Part shown: one piece after another, positions 1,863 to 13,871 of the stretch
Layout: each line of letters opens with the position of its first letter
Position numbering within the stretch: position 1 is the stretch's first letter
Assembly (NCBI GenBank): GCA_946887105.1
Contig: CAMPKJ010000077.1
Coordinates: 1-17,635, forward strand
Source of the DNA: an uncultured Acidobacteriota bacterium
GTDB taxonomy: Bacteria > Acidobacteriota > Thermoanaerobaculia > Gp7-AA8
Direction: 5' to 3'
DNA: 17,635 bases
Made by a program: the position numbers and the translations under genes
The notes under the pieces: generated by a model
What the model was told of the DNA's origin: nothing
The model's input: the letters and a program-made list of their open reading frames with translations, nothing else
The model's database searches: none

Positions 1863-2978
1863 TCAGCTGCTGATGATTCCACTCAGGCGCTGGCGTAAAT
1901 CGTCGAGCTCGCGCAGGATCGACTCGAGCGCGTTCTGCTTGGCCTGCAGATTCTTTTCGAGCGATGCGACCTGCGCCTCGAGCTCGGCGACGCGGCCGCC
2001 GGTTCCAGCGGCGGGCTGTCCACGTTCCTGCTCCAGGACCGCGACGGCGCCCGGCGCATCGACGAGCTCCGCCGCTCCGAGCTCTTCGATGTCGTCGAGC
2101 GGCACGGCCACGCTGCCGGAGAACGTCGGCCGCGTCCGCCCCTCGGCCAGGAGCTGCTCGAGCGACACTTCCTCCGCCGCCTCGTAGTCAGCCTCGACCG
2201 GGGCCGCTCCCTCGGGGAACGGATTCGCGTCCATGGCGACGGAGCCGGCGAACGGATTGGGCGCTTCGGCGAGCGGCTCGTTGTCGAGCATCGCCGGCTC
2301 CGGTGCCTGCTCGGCAACGGGCGCCGGCTTCGCTTCGGGTTTGGACGCGGACTTCGCGTCCGACTTCCGTGGCGCCTCGCTCTTTCCACCTTTGAGCCGT
2401 GAATAGAGATGCTTGGCGGTGAGCTTCGAGACGAGCTTGAACGTCTCCATGACCCCTTCGCCCTTGAGCGCCGACGCCTCGGTATATGGATAGCCTTCGA
2501 AGCCGAGCGATTCCTGCAGCGTCTCGACGGGGAGCACGCCCGGCAGGTCGCGTTTGTTGTACTGGATGATGATCGGCGTGTCGTTCGGATCGATCTGGTT
2601 CTCTTCGAGATTCTCGAGCAGGTTCGCGAAGCTCTCGCGGTTCGCGTCCACCATGGCGGGCTGCGAATCGGCAACGAACACCACCGAGTCGGCGCCGCGC
2701 AGCACGAGCTTGCGGGTCTCGTTGTAGAACACCTGGCCGGGTACGGTGTAGAGCTGGATCTTGAGATTGAACGGGCCGACTTTGCCGATGTCGACCGGCA
2801 GCAGATCGAAGAAAAGCGTGCGGTCGGTCTTGGTGGCCAGCGACAGCATCTTGCCCTTGGATTTCGGGTCGAGCTTGTCGAAGATGACCATCAGATTGGT
2901 CGTTTTGCCGCACAGGCCGGGACCGTAATAGACGATCTTGGCCGTCATCTCGCGGGTGGCGTGATTGAACAGAACCAT
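1863..2978 (-). CDS. MglA-like small Ras-family GTPase with long C-terminal extension
   Basis: A GTP-binding switch protein of the bacterial MglA family, which in Myxococcus sets cell polarity and drives gliding or twitching motility. Of 371 residues, the first ~200 are the G domain: P-loop GPGLCGKTT (19-27), switch region ATKTDRTLFFD (48-58), the MglA-specific TVPGQ (78-82) in place of DxxGQ, NKRD (141-144) for guanine recognition and SALKG (169-173). Typical MglA proteins end near residue 195. Here a ~125-residue Ala/Pro/Glu-rich linker follows, then a coiled coil from about 327 to the end (VAELEAQVASLEKNL onward). The ATG at 2978 is chosen because MVLFNHATREMTAKIVYYGPG aligns with the usual MglA N-terminus; TTG 3005 is the alternative. 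No roadblock/MglB partner is in the window. The lipoprotein and thrC genes lie downstream on the same strand. Confidence 0.9.
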   Translation of the reverse strand: MVLFNHATREMTAKIVYYGPGLCGKTTNLMVIFDKLDPKSKGKMLSLATKTDRTLFFDLLPVDIGKVGPFNLKIQLYTVPGQVFYNETRKLVLRGADSVVFVADSQPAMVDANRESFANLLENLEENQIDPNDTPIIIQYNKRDLPGVLPVETLQESLGFEGYPYTEASALKGEGVMETFKLVSKLTAKHLYSRLKGGKSEAPRKSDAKSASKPEAKPAPVAEQAPEPAMLDNEPLAEAPNPFAGSVAMDANPFPEGAAPVEADYEAAEEVSLEQLLAEGRTRPTFSGSVAVPLDDIEELGAAELVDAPGAVAVLEQERGQPAAGTGGRVAELEAQVASLEKNLQAKQNALESILRELDDLRQRLSGIISS

Positions 2979-2987
2979 GAGGTCAGA

Positions 2988-2993
2988 AGTATC
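2988..2993 (-). promoter_or_regulatory. Candidate -10 element for the MglA-like gene
   Basis: GATACT on the minus strand (4 of 6 matches to TATAAT), with 9 bases between it and the ATG at 2978. No Shine-Dalgarno precedes that ATG, so transcription would start at or next to the start codon. No convincing -35 was found. The box lies in the 35-bp space shared with the divergent Smr gene. Confidence 0.35.
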
Positions 2994-3009
2994 GCACACC
3001 GGCAACTAC

Positions 3010-3015: not shown

Positions 3016-3349
3016 GCGCGCCGTGAATTCTGACGATGCGCCTGACGACGAGCCGGTAGAGGCGGTCGAGATTCCCATCACGGACACGCTGGACCTCCAC
3101 CCGTTCCGCCCGAACGAGGTGCGCGACGTGGCCCGCGAGTACCTGCTCGAGGCGCACGCGCGCGGCTTCACGCAGGTGCGCCTGATCCACGGCCGAGGCA
3201 TCGGCGTGCAGCGCGAGGGCATTCGCTCGCTGCTGGCATCGTTGGACTTCGTCATCGACTTCCACGACGCGGACAGCAGCGGGGGCGGGTGGGGATCGAC
3301 GGTGGTGTTGCTGGCGCCCAATCCGCAGGTTGCACCGAACGAGGAGTGA
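3014..3349 (+). CDS. Smr-domain protein (MutS2 C-terminal type), possible DNA/RNA endonuclease
   Basis: A stand-alone Smr domain of 111 residues. Smr domains, first seen at the C-terminus of MutS2, bind branched DNA or RNA and several are nicking endonucleases. Diagnostic features are LDLHPFRPNEV (the LDLHG-like motif), a helix EYLLEAHARGF, then VRLIHGRGIGVQR (the HGxG core) and IRSLL, ending with GGWGSTVVLL. The N-terminal ~22 residues are acidic and probably disordered. The annotated start is ATG 3014, with no ribosome site. GTG 3023, just after a -10-like TACAAT, is an alternative that shortens the protein by three residues. The stop is one base before the nadA start, so the two are translated together. 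Its cellular role here is unknown; the family assignment is firm. Confidence 0.88.
   Translation: MRAVNSDDAPDDEPVEAVEIPITDTLDLHPFRPNEVRDVAREYLLEAHARGFTQVRLIHGRGIGVQREGIRSLLASLDFVIDFHDADSSGGGWGSTVVLLAPNPQVAPNEE
3341..3346 (+). promoter_or_regulatory. Shine-Dalgarno site of nadA
   Basis: GAGGAG, four bases before the ATG at 3351 and overlapping the last codons of the Smr gene. It supports ATG 3351 rather than the earlier in-frame ATG at 3330, which lies inside the Smr coding region. Confidence 0.65.
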
Positions 3350-3350
3350 A

Positions 3351-4336
<986 letters not shown>

Positions 4337-4337
<1 letters not shown>

Positions 4338-6011: not shown

Positions 6012-8462
6012 CTACCTGCAGATCAACTGATACACGCCGACGACGTCGTCGCGGACGTCGTCGAGATCCGCTTTGATCGTTCCGACGATCTCGTGGAACT
6101 CGGGAGTGTTGTGCAGCGGCGCGAGCCACGGATGTTTCATGAGGGCGTACCAGCTGTGATTGCCGCCCTGCGCCGCGCGCCGCAGCCAGACCAGCGCCTC
6201 CGCGTTGTCGCCGAGCTTCGCGTAGACCATGCTCACGCGCAGCGCCGCCCAGTGATTGCGATTCGCATCGGTTTCGAACGTCTTGATGCGTTGGAGTGCC
6301 GTTGCGCGATCTCCGTGCGCGGCGGCGATGAGCGCCTTCAGGCTTTTGCCGAGGTAGTGACGCGGGACCAGCTTCAGCGCGGCGTCGGCTTCGCGATCCG
6401 CCTGAGCGAGATTGCCGTGGATGAGGAAGGCCATGCCGCGGATGTCGTGGCCGGCGAGCTCCGTTTCGGGCGAGGCCAGCGCGACCTCTGCGGTCTTCAG
6501 CGCGCCTTCGGGATCGACGGCGTTGATGTTCCAGTAGCCGCGCGTGAGCGCTTCGTTGGATAGCGGATCGATCTGCACCAGGCGGTCGCCGACGCATTGC
6601 GCTTTCTCGAGCTCGCCCGTCGACACGAAGTACGTGACCACGGAGTGCAGCGCCTGCGTGTCGGTCGACTCGAGCCGCAGCGCCGCCAGCACTTCGCGCA
6701 CCGACTCGCGGAAGCGCTCCGGATCGCGCACGAAGACGCGTCCGAGAGCGAGGTGGGCCTGCGGAAGATTCGGATCGAGACGGACCGCCTGTCGCGCATA
6801 CCACTCGGCGCGCGCGAGATCCGCGGGATCGGCCAGACTGCGCGCGGAGCCGAGAGAAAGCGTGGCCGCGAGATCGGCATAGGCGGCGGCGAAGTTCGGA
6901 TCGAGTGCGATGGCGCGCTTCAGCGCCGCGATCTGTTCGGCGTAACGCTTCGGCTCGAAACTGCCGTTGAGCGATCGCGCGCGCAGATACTCCTCGTACG
7001 CCTGCGGGTTGGCCGAGCGTGCCGTCGAGCGCGATGCCTGCGACAGCGGCACGCCGATCTGCGCGTTCAATCCGGAGACGGTGCGCGACGAAACGTCGTC
7101 GATCAGCTTGAGCAGATTGTCGCGCCGTCCGTCGACGCTGTCGGACCAGACCTGGAAGCCGGTGCGCGCGTCGGTGAGCTGCAACGTCACGCGAACGAGA
7201 TCGCCGGCGGCGAGGAAGTGTCCCTCCAGAATGCTGTCCACTTTCAGCTTCTCGCTCGCGGTCTTCGTATCGGGCTTCGTGCCCTGGAACTCCAGCACCG
7301 CCGACGTCGGCCGCACCTGCAGCGACGGGATCTGCTGCAGCTCGGTGACCAGCGCATCGGCGAGACCGACGGAGAGGAACTCATCGCTGGTGTTGTTGGC
7401 GATGTTGCGCAAGGGGAGTACGGCCATCGAGCGGATCGGACTCGGCGGGCCGGTCTCGGTCGCGGCTGCGCTGCCGCCGCTCTCCGTGCGCTGCGCGATG
7501 AAGATGGCCACGATCACGATCAATGCAGCGGCGACCGTCACCGCCACGCGGATCCACTTCGGCCGCGGCACCGTGCGGCCCAGGGTCGTACGCGAAGTCG
7601 ATTGCGTCATGCGCACGGTCGGCGTGTCGATCTCTTCGAGATCGCTGAACAGCGCACGCGCCGACTGATAACGATCGTCGGGATCCTTCTGCAGCAGCTT
7701 CGAGATGATGCGCGCCGCCGCGGGCGGGAAGTTCGGATCGGCCGGCACGAACGGCTCCGGCTCGCCATCGCGGATCTTCTCCAGCACCATCAGCGGCGCG
7801 TCGGCGTTGAACGGCAGATGGCCGGTGGCCATGTGATACAGCACCACGCCGATGGAGAAGAGATCGCTGCGCACGTCCGCATCCTGGCCGTGCGCCTGTT
7901 CGGGCGAGATGAAGTGCAGCGTTCCGAAGAAATGGCCGGTGGCCGATTCGTACGTCCGCTCCATTCCCGGATCGGTCATGGAGCGGGGAAGCGACTTCGC
8001 CAGACCGAAGTCGAGGATCTTCGCCAGGCCGTTCGGCTCGACGATGATGTTCGCGCTCTTGATGTCGCGATGGATGATGTTCTTGTCGTGTGCCGCCGCG
8101 ACGCCCGCGGCGATCTGCCGCGCGATGACAAGGAACTCGGCCGCGTCCGGTATGTGACGGCGGATGCGCTGTGAAAGCGTCTCGCCCTCGCAATACTCCA
8201 TGACGATGAACGGAGTGCCGTCCGCCGTTTCGTCGACCTCGTAAATCGTGGCCACGTTCTGATGCCGTACGGCGGCGGCTGACCTCGCCTCGCGCAGGAA
8301 ACGCGCCTTGCGATCGTCGTTCAGCTCGGAGGCGTTCAGGATCTTGATCGCGACCAGCCGTCCAAGCCGTTGATCGCGTGCGAGATAGACGGTGCCCATC
8401 CCGCCCTTGCCGAGGATGCGCAGGATCTCGAAACCATCAAATGCAGGGACGCTGGCGGACAT
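6012..8462 (-). CDS. Transmembrane Ser/Thr protein kinase with TolB/FlgO-like segment and TPRs
   Basis: An 816-residue Hanks-type kinase. The catalytic domain spans about 10-275: glycine loop LGKGGMGTVYLA (17-28), VAIK with Lys40, HRDIKSAN (131-138) with catalytic Asp133, DFGLA (151-155) and SPEQ (185-188) in place of APE. All key residues are present, so it should be active. A ~30-residue linker leads to one transmembrane helix at about 303-323. The following part is then outside the cytoplasm: MAVLPLRNIANNTSDEFLSV and nearby sequence (about 350-480) resemble the TolB-N/FlgO fold often joined to such kinases. Helical repeats from about 500 to 770 look like TPRs, for example ALDPNFAAAYADLA and RLDPNLPQAHLALG. 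The ATG at 8462 is 10 residues before the domain. It is transcribed away from the sigma54 regulator gene. The partner substrate is unknown. Confidence 0.93.
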   Translation of the reverse strand: MSASVPAFDGFEILRILGKGGMGTVYLARDQRLGRLVAIKILNASELNDDRKARFLREARSAAAVRHQNVATIYEVDETADGTPFIVMEYCEGETLSQRIRRHIPDAAEFLVIARQIAAGVAAAHDKNIIHRDIKSANIIVEPNGLAKILDFGLAKSLPRSMTDPGMERTYESATGHFFGTLHFISPEQAHGQDADVRSDLFSIGVVLYHMATGHLPFNADAPLMVLEKIRDGEPEPFVPADPNFPPAAARIISKLLQKDPDDRYQSARALFSDLEEIDTPTVRMTQSTSRTTLGRTVPRPKWIRVAVTVAAALIVIVAIFIAQRTESGGSAAATETGPPSPIRSMAVLPLRNIANNTSDEFLSVGLADALVTELQQIPSLQVRPTSAVLEFQGTKPDTKTASEKLKVDSILEGHFLAAGDLVRVTLQLTDARTGFQVWSDSVDGRRDNLLKLIDDVSSRTVSGLNAQIGVPLSQASRSTARSANPQAYEEYLRARSLNGSFEPKRYAEQIAALKRAIALDPNFAAAYADLAATLSLGSARSLADPADLARAEWYARQAVRLDPNLPQAHLALGRVFVRDPERFRESVREVLAALRLESTDTQALHSVVTYFVSTGELEKAQCVGDRLVQIDPLSNEALTRGYWNINAVDPEGALKTAEVALASPETELAGHDIRGMAFLIHGNLAQADREADAALKLVPRHYLGKSLKALIAAAHGDRATALQRIKTFETDANRNHWAALRVSMVYAKLGDNAEALVWLRRAAQGGNHSWYALMKHPWLAPLHNTPEFHEIVGTIKADLDDVRDDVVGVYQLICR

Positions 8463-8479
8463 CGGGAAAATTCGAGGGC

Positions 8480-8485
8480 ATGATA
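8480..8485 (-). promoter_or_regulatory. Candidate -10 element for the transmembrane kinase gene
   Basis: TATCAT on the minus strand (5 of 6 matches to TATAAT), 17 bases before the ATG at 8462, giving a leader of roughly ten bases without a Shine-Dalgarno. No good -35 is seen at normal spacing. It lies in the 105-bp region shared with the divergent regulator gene. Confidence 0.35.
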
Positions 8486-8549
8486 CACGGGGGCGCAGGC
8501 CGAGCGGAGGCTGGACAAATATCTGACCCCCTTCCGTCACAGTGTGGGT

Positions 8550-8555
8550 TATATT
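8550..8555 (+). promoter_or_regulatory. Candidate -10 element for the kinase-sigma54 regulator gene
   Basis: TATATT (5 of 6 matches to TATAAT), followed by 12 bases and then the ATG at 8568. A start site about seven bases downstream would leave a leader of only around five bases. The box lies downstream of the GTG at 8544, arguing against that longer start. No -24/-12 sigma54 signature (GG-N10-GC) was found on either strand of 8463-8567. Confidence 0.4.
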
Positions 8556-8567
8556 CTCACCCCGCGT

Positions 8568-11500
8568 ATGACGACCGCTGAAAGCATCGCGCCTGATATT
8601 GCCCTGCCGCCGCGGTATCAGATCCGGTCCGTCCTCAAGCAAACCCCCGACACCTGTGTGTTCCGCGTCTTCGACGCGCCGGACCGCCGCGACGAAGCGA
8701 TCAAGATCCTCTCGCGCGAAGTCACGGATCCGCAACAACTCCTGCGCTTCAAGACCGAGTTCTCGACGCTCGCATCGCTCGAGCACGCCAGCGTGATCAA
8801 GGTCTACGACTACGGCGTCCTGCAGGATCGCTATCCGTACTTCACGATGGAGTTCTTCGCCGGAAAACGCATCACCGAATTTTTCGACGGCAAGAACTGG
8901 GACGCGCTCTACGATGTCATCCTCCAGATCGCCTCCGGCCTGCACCACATCCATCACCTCGGCATCGTGCATCTCGATCTGAAGCCGTCGAACATCCTCG
9001 TCAACGACGAAGGCCAGGCCAAGATCATGGACTTCGGCCTGGCCATCGAGAGCCGGCAGGTCTTCGACCGGAAGATCCGCGGCACGCTGCAGTACATGGC
9101 GCCCGAAGTGTTGCGCCAGGACCGCGTCGACTCGCGCGCCGATCTCTACGCGCTCGGCATGACGCTGTACGAGACCGTCACCGGCGCGCTGCCGGGCTAC
9201 GGACGGCCGGCCATCGAAGTGATGCGCATGCATCTCGATGAGGAGATCCGTCCGCCGTCGTCGATCAATCCGCGCCTTCCCGAAAGACTCGAGCAGATCA
9301 TCCGCAAGCTGCTGGAGAAAGATCCGCGGCATCGCTTCCCATCCGCCGCCGCGTTGATGCAGGCGGTCGCGGAAGCAGCGGGCAGGAAGGGTCCGCCGCG
9401 GGAGCTCCTGGTCGGACACGGCGAGCTGTACGCCGCGCCGCTGATCGGCCGCAAGCATGAAGTCGAACAGTTGATGGCGCTCATCGCCGATGCGCGTGAA
9501 GGCCGCGGCAACGGCGTGATCCTGGCCGGCGCGGAAGGCATGGGCAAGAGTCGCATCGTCCGCGACGTCACGCTGCGCGCGCAGCTCGACGGCGCGCGCG
9601 TGTTCTGCGGGCGCTGTCCCGTCAATCGCAAGACGATCTACGCGCCGTTCTTCGAAATCTTCCAACAGATGGTCTCCGCGGTGAATCCGGAAGCCGACGT
9701 CGCGGAAGAGATCCGGCGCATTCTGCGGCCCGTGGTCGCGCAAGCGGGTCCGGAGACGAGCCCGCCGCAGCACGGGCAGAAGTACCGCCTCTACAACCGC
9801 ATCGTGCAGTCGATGCAGGACCTCTATGGATTCCTGAGCGTCGGCGGCGAAGCGGGCGGCTCTCCGCTGATCCTCGTGATCGACGACCTGCAGTGGGCCG
9901 ATCCGTCGACCGCGGAGCTGTTTTCGTTCCTGGTCAGCGAAGCGAAACAGAACCGCCTGCTCGTGATCGGCACGCTCACGCTCGATTCGGGCGGCGAGGC
10001 GGCCATCGAATCGTCCTCGCCGGATCTCGCGTTCTGGGAGATGCGCAGCCGCGAAGGCAGCTTCCCGATCCTGCGCGTCGAAACGCTCACGGAATCGCTG
10101 GTACGCGAGCACGTGCAGTCGCTTCTCGGCGATCTCAACGTCAGCGATGAACTGGTGCGCTGGATGTTGTGGGAGTCGGCCGGCTCGCCGCTGAACATCC
10201 GGCGCATCGTCGATTACCTCGTCGCGCACGACTATCTGCAGTGGACGCCCGACGGATGGATCGCCGACATCGAACGCATCCGCGTGCTGCGCATGCCGGG
10301 CGGCTCCGCGTCGATCCTCATGGAGAAGGTGGACGCGCTCGCGCCGGAAACGCGCGCGCTGCTGGAGATGGCGTCGGTGTTCGGTGAGACGATGGATCTC
10401 GAGCTGCTGTCTCACGTCTCCGACGTCCCGCCGGAGCAAACGTACGCAGCGGTGCGCGAGCTCTCGCGGCATGGCCTCATCGACGAGTCGAACGATGGGA
10501 AGACCATCCTCTTCCCGCAGATGCATCTTCGCGACGCGCTGTACAACGCCATGCCGGAGCGGCGGCGCACGGAACTGCATGCGCGTTTCGGCGAGGCGCT
10601 GGAGCCGGCCGCGAACGACGGCTCGACGCAGCTGATCGGACAGGTGGCGTATCACTTCGCGCGCGCAAACGACATCGAGCGCGGAACGCGCTATTCGATC
10701 GACGCCGGCGATCTCGCGACGCGCACGCTCGCGCACGAAGAGGCGACGGAGTTCTATCGCGTCGCGCTGGAGCTGATGGACCTCGGCGGTGTCGAAGAGG
10801 CCCGCAAGGCGGAAGTGCGCGAGAAGCTGGCCGACGCGTACTACCGCCGCGATGACTATCGCAGCGCCATGCACGCGTATCAGTTCCTGCTCAAGAGCAT
10901 CCAGAGCCGGCATCCGGACGAAGTGGCGAACGTCGACATCGCGCGGGTGATGAAGAAGATCGGCAAGGTGCTGGTGCGTCGCGGCGATCAGGAAGCGGCC
11001 ATGACGTACTACCAGTCCGCGCTCACGACCTACGAGCAGCTCGGACAGACCGTCGACGTCGCGGAGATGCTGAACCGGCTGGCGTGGCTGTATCGCATGC
11101 GCGATGACCTCGACGCCGCACGCGACACCGCCGAACGCGCCAGGACCATGCTCGAGAGGATGGAGCCGACCGTGGTCTACGGCTACGTCAAGAACATCCT
11201 CGGCCTGATCGAGTTTGCGCGCGGCGACTGGCAGCGCTCGCGCGAGATCCTCGAGGAAGCGCTGGCCATCGGCGAGCGGCTCGGCTCCGAGCAGCTCTGC
11301 AAAGTGGTCTCGATGAACCTCGGCAACACGGTCTGGAAGCTCGGCGAGTGGAACACGGCCATGAGCTACTTCCGCCGCAATCTCGAGCGCTCCGAGGCGG
11401 AAGGCGATCTGTGGGACCTCGTCACCGCGTACAGCAATGTGGGCGTGGTCGAGTACGGACGCGGCAACTTCCACACCGCCGCGGCGCTGTTCGAGAAGAG

Positions 11501-13871
11501 TGTGCGCATCGACGAGAAGATCGGCGCGCTCGAGCACGAAGCGCTGGCCCGCGAGAACCTCGGCGACGCGCTGGAGATGCTCGGCCGCTGGGACGAGGCG
11601 CTGGCGCAGTACCAGCGCTGCATCAGCCTGGAAGGCTTCGATGAAACGCGCGCGTCGCGGCTGTCGGTCTACGTGCCGCTGGCGCGACTGACGAAGAAAC
11701 GCGGCGACATCGCGAAGGCGCTCGAGTTCGCGCAGAAGGCGATGGCGGCCGGCGAGCGCGCACGCGAAGAAGACCTGATCGCCGAGGCGGCATATGTGAT
11801 CGCCTCGATCGAGGACGAGCGCGGAAACCTCGACGAAGCGGAGCGCTACCTCGGGCGCTGCCTGACCATCTTCGAGAGCAATCGCACGCTTCCCGGACTT
11901 GCGCGTGCGCACACCGCCGCGGCCGTATTCGTGCTGCAGCGCGGCGACATGGATGCGGCGGTGCGGCATGCGGAGATCGGCGAGCGTTATGCGCGCCAGC
12001 TCGGCGATCGCTATCAGCTGGCCAAGAACGATTGGGCCTGGGCCAAGATCCACGGTTCACGCGGCGACCGCGAGACCGCCACGGCAAAATTCGACGGCGC
12101 GCGCGCGGCGTTCGAAGAGCTCGACACTCCGTACGACCTCGGGCGCCTCCTGTTCGACATCGGCCTGCTGCGCGAAGAGCCGGAAGAGGCCACGCAAACG
12201 ATCCGCAGCGCGATCCGCATCTTCGAGCGCCTCGACGCCACGCACGACCTCGAACGTGCGCGCGGTGCGCTGTTCCGGATCCGTCCGCCGGGACGCGCGC
12301 CGGAGTCGGGCGTGGTCGGGCTGTACGAGATCGTCAAGATCATCAACTCGACGCTGAACCTCGAGGAAGTGCTCAACCGCGTCCTCGACGTCTGCATCCG
12401 CCGCCTGCGCGCCGAGCGCGGGATGATCATCCTGCTCGATCCGCTCACCGGCGCGATGCGCACGCGCATCGTCCGCAACATCAAGGAAGGCGCGGAAGGG
12501 GAGTCGAAGCGCTCGCCGCAGTCGATCGTCAAGGAAGTGATCCAGACCGGGCAATCGGTGATGTCCGCCGACGCGCGCGAGGACCATCGCTTCGTCGAGT
12601 CGGAGTCGGTGATCGCGGAGAACATCATCTCCATCCTCTGCGCGCCGCTCATCATCAAGGAGCGCATCTCCGGCGCGATTTACGTCGATCATCGCCAGGC
12701 GCGTCAGCTCTTCTCGCAGAAGGACCTGAGCTTCCTGGAGGCGTTCGGCGATCAGGCCGCCATCGCGATCGAGAACGCGCGTCTTTACGAAGAGCTCGAG
12801 GAAGCGCGCACGCGGCTGTCACTGGAAAACGAAACGCTGCGCCGCGAGGTGCTCGTCGAGAAGCATCTCGACTCCGTCATCGGACATTCGGATGCAGTGG
12901 TGAAGATTCAGTTCGCGATCCGCAAGGCATCGGCGGGACACTCGACGGTGCTGCTGCGCGGCGAATCGGGAACGGGCAAGGGACTGGTGGCGCGGATCAT
13001 CCACAACATCGGGCCGCGCCGGAACGGACCGTTCATCAAGTTCAACTGCGCCGCGCTGCCGGAGACGCTCGCGGAGTCGGAGCTGTTCGGCCACGAGAAG
13101 GGCGCGTTCACCGGCGCCGACCGGCGGAAGCTGGGACGCTTCGAGCTGGCCAACAACGGGACGATCTTCCTCGACGAGATCGGCAAGATGTCGCTGGCCA
13201 TGCAGGCCAAGCTGCTGCGCGTGGTGGAAGACAAGGAGTTCGAGCGTGTCGGCGGAACGCAGACCATCAAGACCGACGTGAAGATCGTCACCGCGACCAA
13301 TCTCGATCTGGAGAAGGCGATCGAGGACGACACGTTCCGCGAGGATCTGTTCTACCGGCTGAACATCATCCCGATCGTGCTGCCGCCGCTGCGCGATCGC
13401 AAAGACGACATCCCGGTCCTGACCGAGCATTTCATCCGCAAGATCTGCAAGGACCTCGGCATCGACAACAAGCGCCTCGAGCCGGGCGTGCTGGACCTCT
13501 TCATGCGCTACGACTGGCCGGGCAACGTCCGCGAGCTCGAAGCCACCATCCACCGCGCCATCGTCATGTCGAACGGCGACACGGTGACCAAGAACGAGTT
13601 CTACAACCTCTATTCGAGCCAGGCGCCGACGCTCGCGGTCTCGGACGGCTCGTCCGCCATCTCGAGCTCGATCGTCGGCCCGCTGGTGGGCAAGAGCGAG
13701 ATCACCTCCGAGGTGTACGACGAGGTGATGAGCGCCGTCGACAAACAGCTGATCCTGCGCGCGCTGGAGAGTTGCGGTGGAAGGATCCGCGAGGCTGCAC
13801 GCAGACTCGGCCTCGCGAGAAATACGCTGAAGTCGAAGATTCAGAAGTACAACATTGCGGTGAGGGAGTAG
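8568..13871 (+). CDS. Giant fusion regulator: kinase - AAA_16 ATPase - TPR - GAF - sigma54 activator - Fis HTH
   Basis: A single 1767-residue polypeptide with six modules. (1) Residues 15-270: a Hanks-type kinase fold with Lys46, HLDLKPSN (135-142), DFGLA (155-159) and APE (178-180). The glycine loop is degenerate and HRD reads HLD. (2) Residues about 290-680: an AAA_16/STAND-like ATPase with LIGRKHEVE, Walker [11 protein letters not shown] (321-330) and Walker [13 protein letters not shown] (434-445). (3) Residues about 690-1230: a long TPR array. (4) Residues about 1248-1405: a GAF domain ending in the signalling helix [15 protein letters not shown]. (5) Residues about 1435-1670: a sigma54-interaction AAA+ domain with VIGHSDAV, Walker A GESGTGKG (1465-1472), GAFTGA (1512-1517), TIFLDEIG and LRDRKDDI. 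(6) A Fis-type helix-turn-helix near 1728-1764 ([20 protein letters not shown]). The output should be ATP-dependent activation of sigma54 promoters. ATG 8568 is preferred to GTG 8544 because of the -10 position. Confidence 0.95.

Follow-up and report, generated by a model that had tools for sequence, protein, structure and literature searches.

The gene described here lies on contig CAMPKJ010000077.1 of an uncultured Acidobacteriota bacterium (class Thermoanaerobaculia), of which a 17,635-nucleotide stretch, hereafter the window, was analysed. At 8568..13871 on the plus strand, the window contains a single stop-free frame that translates to 1767 amino acids, with the open-reading-frame list setting the frame start further upstream, at a GTG at 8544. 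Its product is a probable sigma54 activator fused to an N-terminal Ser/Thr protein kinase (STPK) domain, with a STAND-type nucleoside triphosphatase (NTPase), a tetratricopeptide-repeat (TPR) array and a GAF domain in between, and it belongs to a real and conserved family. The gene and its parts, all on the plus strand, are laid out as follows.

8568..13871, plus strand: whole gene, 1767 amino acids, in the order STPK, STAND (AAA_16), TPR, GAF, sigma54 AAA+, HTH_8
8613..9377, plus strand: Ser/Thr kinase domain, residues 16-270 (Pfam, motifs and fold match to PknB)
9432..10637, plus strand: predicted STAND-type NTPase, residues ~289-690 (motifs, followed by a helical region)
10638..12212, plus strand: TPR array, residues ~691-1215 (Pfam and structure model)
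12348..12782, plus strand: GAF domain, residues 1261-1405 (Pfam)
12717..12860, plus strand: long GAF-to-AAA+ helix in the structure model, residues 1384-1431
12876..13637, plus strand: sigma54-activator AAA+ domain, residues 1437-1690 (Pfam and motifs)
13734..13868, plus strand: Fis-type HTH_8 domain, residues 1723-1767 (Pfam)

Domain architecture of the 1767-residue protein

A Pfam profile search of the protein placed all six modules above the curated cut-offs: (i) Pkinase at residues 30-263 (145.8 bits vs a cut-off of 31.7), (ii) AAA_16 at residues 291-467 (106.9 vs 32.6), (iii) TPR_12 (142.5 vs 30.1), (iv) GAF at residues 1264-1401 (59.5 vs 22.4), (v) Sigma54_activat at residues 1437-1603 (229.8 vs 20.2), with the AAA lid also matched, and (vi) HTH_8 at residues 1723-1761 (42.0 vs 22). 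This bears out an earlier note on this DNA, made from its letters alone, which had recognized six modules in one frame of this length. The same note had described the chain as free of histidine-kinase and receiver domains; neither was detected among 25 of 37 Pfam families, and the C terminus is filled by the sigma54 AAA+ and helix-turn-helix (HTH) domains. Within this C-terminal part, the Walker A motif GESGTGKG is at residue 1465, GAFTGA spans residues 1512-1517, DEIG stands at 1536 and FREDLFYRL at 1590. The protein thus contains the domain features of a bacterial enhancer-binding protein (bEBP), i.e., a Sigma54_activat AAA+ domain with Walker A and B motifs, GAFTGA and an arginine finger, followed by a C-terminal HTH.

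STAND proteins are defined by a GRExE-like motif, Walker A and B motifs, and a GxP motif. All have counterparts in the window protein, with GRxxE at residues 294-298 (reading GRKHE), Walker A at 321-328, Walker B ending at D439-D440 and GxP at 539-541; residues ~289-690 are thereby assigned, on motif content, as a putative STAND module. AlphaFold2 modelled residues 1-700 with a mean predicted local distance difference test score (pLDDT) of 81.5 and a predicted template modelling score (pTM) of 0.80, the kinase fold being closest to PknB; all 50 Foldseek matches listed for this segment were kinases, and hence these contained no structural match to the STAND part. For residues 691-1767, the mean pLDDT was 79.9 and the pTM 0.52. 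This second model has 29 helices in the stretch from residue 692 to 1238, equivalent to ~14 TPR pairs, as well as one long helix (residues 1384-1431) that joins the GAF domain to the AAA+ domain, with segments of pLDDT < 50 from residue 1423. In a comparison of 12 segments, conservation was highest at residues 1406-1436, which overlap this helix (mean identity 0.964).

Conservation of the family and its probable sigma54 output

The protein database search scored 7991 candidates and returned 940 relatives at E <= 1e-50, for which 120 entries were listed (the query and 119 others). Among these matches, at least 119 other protein clusters are 71-91% identical to the query, with alignments that span 90-100% of its length; where a database name is given, it is in most cases "sigma 54-interacting transcriptional regulator" or "Nif-specific regulatory protein". 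A genome scan yielded 11 loci, of which seven are full length (L001-L007), one (L008) runs off the end of its contig and three are weaker, partial matches; the seven orthologues come from named Acidobacteriota/Thermoanaerobaculia metagenome-assembled genomes (MAGs), share 59-83% identity with the query along their entire length and have no internal stop. The concern, voiced in the earlier note, that a frameshift had joined two genes is dispelled, as is a chimera, by these clusters and single-frame orthologues; with no point found in its favour, such an assembly artefact is practically inconceivable.

More distant members extend the family. A search from the distant relative L036 gave further proteins, which among the matches listed were mostly 44-69% identical to L036; most share the precomputed domains, and some shorter rows are without the kinase. 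Matches at E < 1e-200 occurred in 18 of 147 genomes sampled from the class of the nearest genome (in three of which contig ends split the match), and at E <= 1e-130 in 13 of 297 genomes of the Acidobacteriota phylum sample, including a group only 30-33% identical. Relatives were also present in 3 of 132 genomes from a second phylum (that of L010, by its name Candidatus Zixiibacteriota), where hmmscan of one member, L055, recovered kinase, AAA_16, TPR, GAF, Sigma54_activat and HTH_8. In the phylum of L009 (found in G412, a Desulfobacterales MAG), 0 of 198 genomes matched at E 1e-130, and 0 plasmid records covered 80% of the query. These samples comprise three phyla, with the class and phylum samples overlapping; since the best two or three candidates were scored per genome, the counts are of genomes and not of copies.

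The motifs of the output half are strongly retained. Across the 120 close rows, GESG[TS]GKG and FREDL[FY]YRL are each present in 120/120, with GAFTGA in 94 and GSFTGA in 26. A wider alignment of 242 rows, which leaves out L034, L035 and L038-L041 (partial, or without the sigma54 part in the available DNA) and contains near or full duplicates (L036/P0121 and L037/P0199), has the sigma54 Walker A lysine in 242/242 rows, arginine 1591 in 241/241 rows with a letter there, and FTGA in 239/242. The STAND residues are similarly preserved (G294 in 234/236, R295 in 235/236, K327 in 237/238, D440 in 234/238, and both G539 and P541 in 238/238).

The search for rpoN proposed in the earlier note was made in relatives' genomes, with the window's own genome outside the comparison. 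The gene (PF04552) was detected in 7 of 8 genomes in the closest set and 18 of 19 in a second set; G002, the only miss in both, has a 255-aa frame with the sigma54 core-binding domain, which suggests that its sigma54 gene was cut by assembly. Counting G002 once and excluding G413, in which the architecture was not shown, all 25 of the 25 genomes checked that bear the architecture (as judged by alignment) have a sigma54 sequence, one of them as this short frame only. In four genomes counted, Sigma54_activat matches numbered 22 to 26 per genome, weak AAA+ matches included, and the protein would therefore be one of many activators per cell. The domains, their conserved motifs, the family and the presence of sigma54 in relatives' genomes are all direct observations.

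Proposed mechanism, kinase loop and divergent kinase gene

We favour, at a probability of roughly 65%, a soluble one-protein bEBP in which the GAF/AAA+ output would be released by the kinase-STAND-TPR part. The C-terminal third would act in a NifA-like manner, by homology, with the HTH binding DNA and the GAFTGA-bearing AAA+ ring remodelling the sigma54-polymerase closed complex, while the GAF domain would control this ring via the long helix; the high conservation of residues 1406-1436 is as expected if GAF signals to the ring. The N-terminal two thirds would form an input cassette made up of kinase, STAND NTPase and TPR scaffold. Binding of ligands or partners to the TPR and GAF domains, together with nucleotide exchange in the STAND module, would drive oligomerization and free the AAA+ ring, with the kinase tuning this switch by auto- or cross-phosphorylation. 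The chemistry of such rings and switches is established for bEBPs and STAND proteins, and kinase-STAND-TPR-type input cassettes elsewhere precede histidine kinases or cyclases; for the window protein, we infer the coupling between its halves, its kinase activity, its signal and its targets.

Several observations weigh against this mechanism. The domain packing in the model of residues 691-1767 (pTM 0.52) is not informative, and kinase activity is uncertain given a degenerate glycine loop. GSFTGA replaces GAFTGA in 43 of 242 aligned rows. Moreover, the three second-phylum members (L055, L056 and L057) have KTATGV where others have GAFTGA, though their genomes have rpoN, which speaks against sigma54 as the output throughout the wider family. 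The -24/-12 promoters that the earlier note had proposed to look for did not materialize, with one match in the window (at two mismatches) against 5.03 expected by chance; nor were any target genes found by this promoter search, which covered the window only, genome-wide targets not being sought. The earlier interpretation of the locus thus stands in part: the architecture is real and conserved and relatives encode sigma54, but the proposal that kinase activity gates transcription is not supported, the glycine loop being degenerate and the window lacking any -24/-12 promoter above chance.

The kinase domain itself is a mixture of strict conservation and loss. Its K46, E64, HLDLKPSN (135-142), DFG (155-157) and APE (178-180) supply the catalytic K, E, HxDxKxxN and DFG of a Hanks-type Ser/Thr kinase, whereas the GxGxxG loop is absent, residues 23-31 reading LKQTPDTCV. 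K46, E64 and DFG are kept in 119 of the 120 close rows, the remaining row having a gap there, and in the 242-row alignment no row deviates at K46, E64, D137, K139, D155 or G157 among the 232-234 that have a residue there, N142 being kept in 232/233. Together with the invariant STAND GxP, this conservation indicates that both input modules are under selection. By comparison, none of the 120 close rows has two or more glycines in the loop window, and GxGxxG is in place in 0 of the 221 family rows having the loop region (of 236 family rows, 15 are without it); the sole regular-expression match, in P0219, falls downstream of the loop. Six distant relatives retain the first two loop glycines (LGEGGMG in L058 and L060), with the third lost in L056 and L059. 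In the three second-phylum members, L055, L056 and L057, these two glycines occur together with KTATGV and an rpoN-bearing genome. Separately, L030, L031 and L033 have open frames that reach ~385-490 residues further upstream than the kinase alignment, and these extensions may be coding.

The six loop-keeping relatives are separated from the other rows by a branch that has 100% support in the Shimodaira-Hasegawa-like approximate likelihood ratio test (SH-aLRT), in a tree built by a quick method from 34 of the 242 aligned rows, in which L037, L058, L059 and L060 were flagged as long branches. A single loss of the glycine loop would thus be the simplest reading, for a tree whose root is not fixed and with most of the 236 family rows placed in the loop-less clade by similarity, outside the 34-row tree. 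This separation, and the uniform absence of the loop across the family, would fit a kinase domain that has become a pseudokinase or nucleotide sensor, controlling the activator allosterically without phosphotransfer. However, pseudokinases usually do not retain such catalytic residues as are invariant here. Loop loss is also not unique to this family, the available text of a survey of cyanobacterial kinases giving an exact GxGxxG in only 53.3% (PMC2176072). We therefore regard a pseudokinase role as improbable, although worth keeping in view. Whatever its activity, the loss of the loop alongside kept catalytic residues, set against the loop-keeping relatives, constitutes a natural experiment on the necessity of the loop.

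A different possibility is raised by the neighbouring gene, which lies head to head with that of the activator across a short intergenic region.

6012..8462, minus strand: STPK2, divergent gene for a Ser/Thr kinase with a hydrophobic segment at ~304-324 and C-terminal TPR matches; possible partner
8463..8567, no strand assigned: divergent intergenic region of 105 bp, with TCTGACC-N17-GGGTTA and a TATATT 12 bases before the ATG

The earlier note omits this conserved divergent kinase gene, and the signalling chain that it described may thus not be a one-protein chain. STPK2 could sense a signal, probably at the membrane, and phosphorylate the activator, which would then act as the regulator within a two-protein system, its own kinase-like domain serving to dock or receive. 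All 10 of the distinct close-relative loci compared (L001-L008, L023 and L027) have the two genes in this head-to-head arrangement. STPK2 has a normal glycine loop (LGKGGMGTVY) and a strongly hydrophobic segment, probably transmembrane, at residues ~304-324 (best 19-residue hydrophobicity mean of 2.8, vs 1.6 in the activator), and the activator has neither. The intergenic element TCTGACC-N16/17-GGGTTA occurs in six relatives (L001-L006) as well as in the window, and was not found with the pattern used in L007, L008, L023 and L027; in the genomes of 4 of 4 relatives searched, TCTGACC-N15-17-GGGTTA occurs once per genome, at this locus. Adjacency is not interaction, however, and the distant loci L030-L039 gave no STPK2 match (filters of 38% identity and 30% length), with only ~1.5 kb or less of flank there. 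A division of labour between STPK2 and the activator is, on balance, a doubtful alternative to the one-protein mechanism. More speculative again is the idea that STPK2, as sensor, and the divergently encoded giant sigma54 activator, as regulator, make up a conserved pair, i.e., a Ser/Thr counterpart of the two-component system, in which the activator's kinase, with its rebuilt ATP loop, would be a receiver-like switch.

The intergenic element may serve this locus as an operator or promoter; a role as a regulon-wide operator was rejected at the stringency used, given its restriction to this locus in the four genomes. The TATATT suggests a very short leader, and a sigma70 promoter scan of 8300-8800 found nothing. 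On the minus strand, a 2013-aa open frame (6012-12053) spans STPK2 and continues antisense to the activator gene; it is probably a high-GC shadow. Further away, 1863-3005 on the minus strand encodes a small GTPase-like protein with a weak Arf match, which we presume to resemble MglA; this gene stays near that at 3330-4337, which we take to be NadA-like, in L001, L005, L006 and L008.

Relation to known systems

The closest comparison is with NifA and other GAF-type enhancer-binding proteins, which have the same GAF-AAA+-HTH order and motifs, and to which the window protein adds a kinase, STAND and TPR region of ~1250 residues at its N terminus. Its best PDB sequence match is the NifA chain 9qq6_C, over residues 1252-1766. 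The NifA model TIGR01817 matches residues 1248-1766 at 453.1 bits, below the equivalog cut-off of 528.85, and a NifA orthologue was accordingly rejected; the label "Nif-specific regulatory protein" on many database entries is not supported by this cut-off for the window's protein. Myxobacterial FHA-domain enhancer-binding proteins also link Ser/Thr phosphorylation to sigma54 activation, with a separate kinase whose signal is read by the FHA domain.

Elsewhere, similar inputs are joined to other outputs. The HstK/cbSTKIII dual kinases of cyanobacteria, as presented in the available text of PMC2176072, likewise combine kinase, GAF and a further output in one chain, but that output is a histidine kinase, in place of the sigma54 activator and HTH found here. 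A Leptolyngbya protein gives a two-part alignment with the window protein, within query residues 17-1419 (26.5% identity, 53% query coverage), and its kinase is also without GxGxxG; we read it as a probable member of cbSTKIII, with a putative histidine kinase at its C terminus. The best stretch of the TOMM kinase/cyclase fusion model (TIGR03903) matches residues 289-751, the STAND region, at 216.3 bits, below its cut-off of 705.75, the output there being a cyclase, to judge from the model's name. A kinase-TPR-GGDEF protein of Clostridium thermocellum likewise has an N-terminal kinase and TPR ahead of a different C-terminal output, in this case GGDEF, with a STAND domain not mentioned in the part of the article available (PMC1262709).

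Sigma54 activators are often gated by receiver, PAS, GAF, PRD or V4R domains, according to the available portion of a 2025 survey, from whose main text the terms "protein kinase" and "Acidobacteri" are absent (PMC12316311). An earlier survey, from 2011, gives ~136 Pfam architectures among sigma54 activators in the part available (PMC3162934), and a tabulation of that kind may already include a kinase fusion without comment. Among the matches listed for the open-access literature, no title or abstract opening dealt with a kinase-TPR-sigma54 fusion; the parts are known and the proteins are already in databases, with a description of the architecture not found in those matches.

Ultimately, the family supports the idea of kinase-STAND-TPR as a portable input cassette with an exchangeable output. 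If the activator is gated by its Hanks kinase and STAND/TPR modules, then Ser/Thr phosphorylation and ligand sensing akin to that of NLR proteins would be tied directly to sigma54-dependent transcription.

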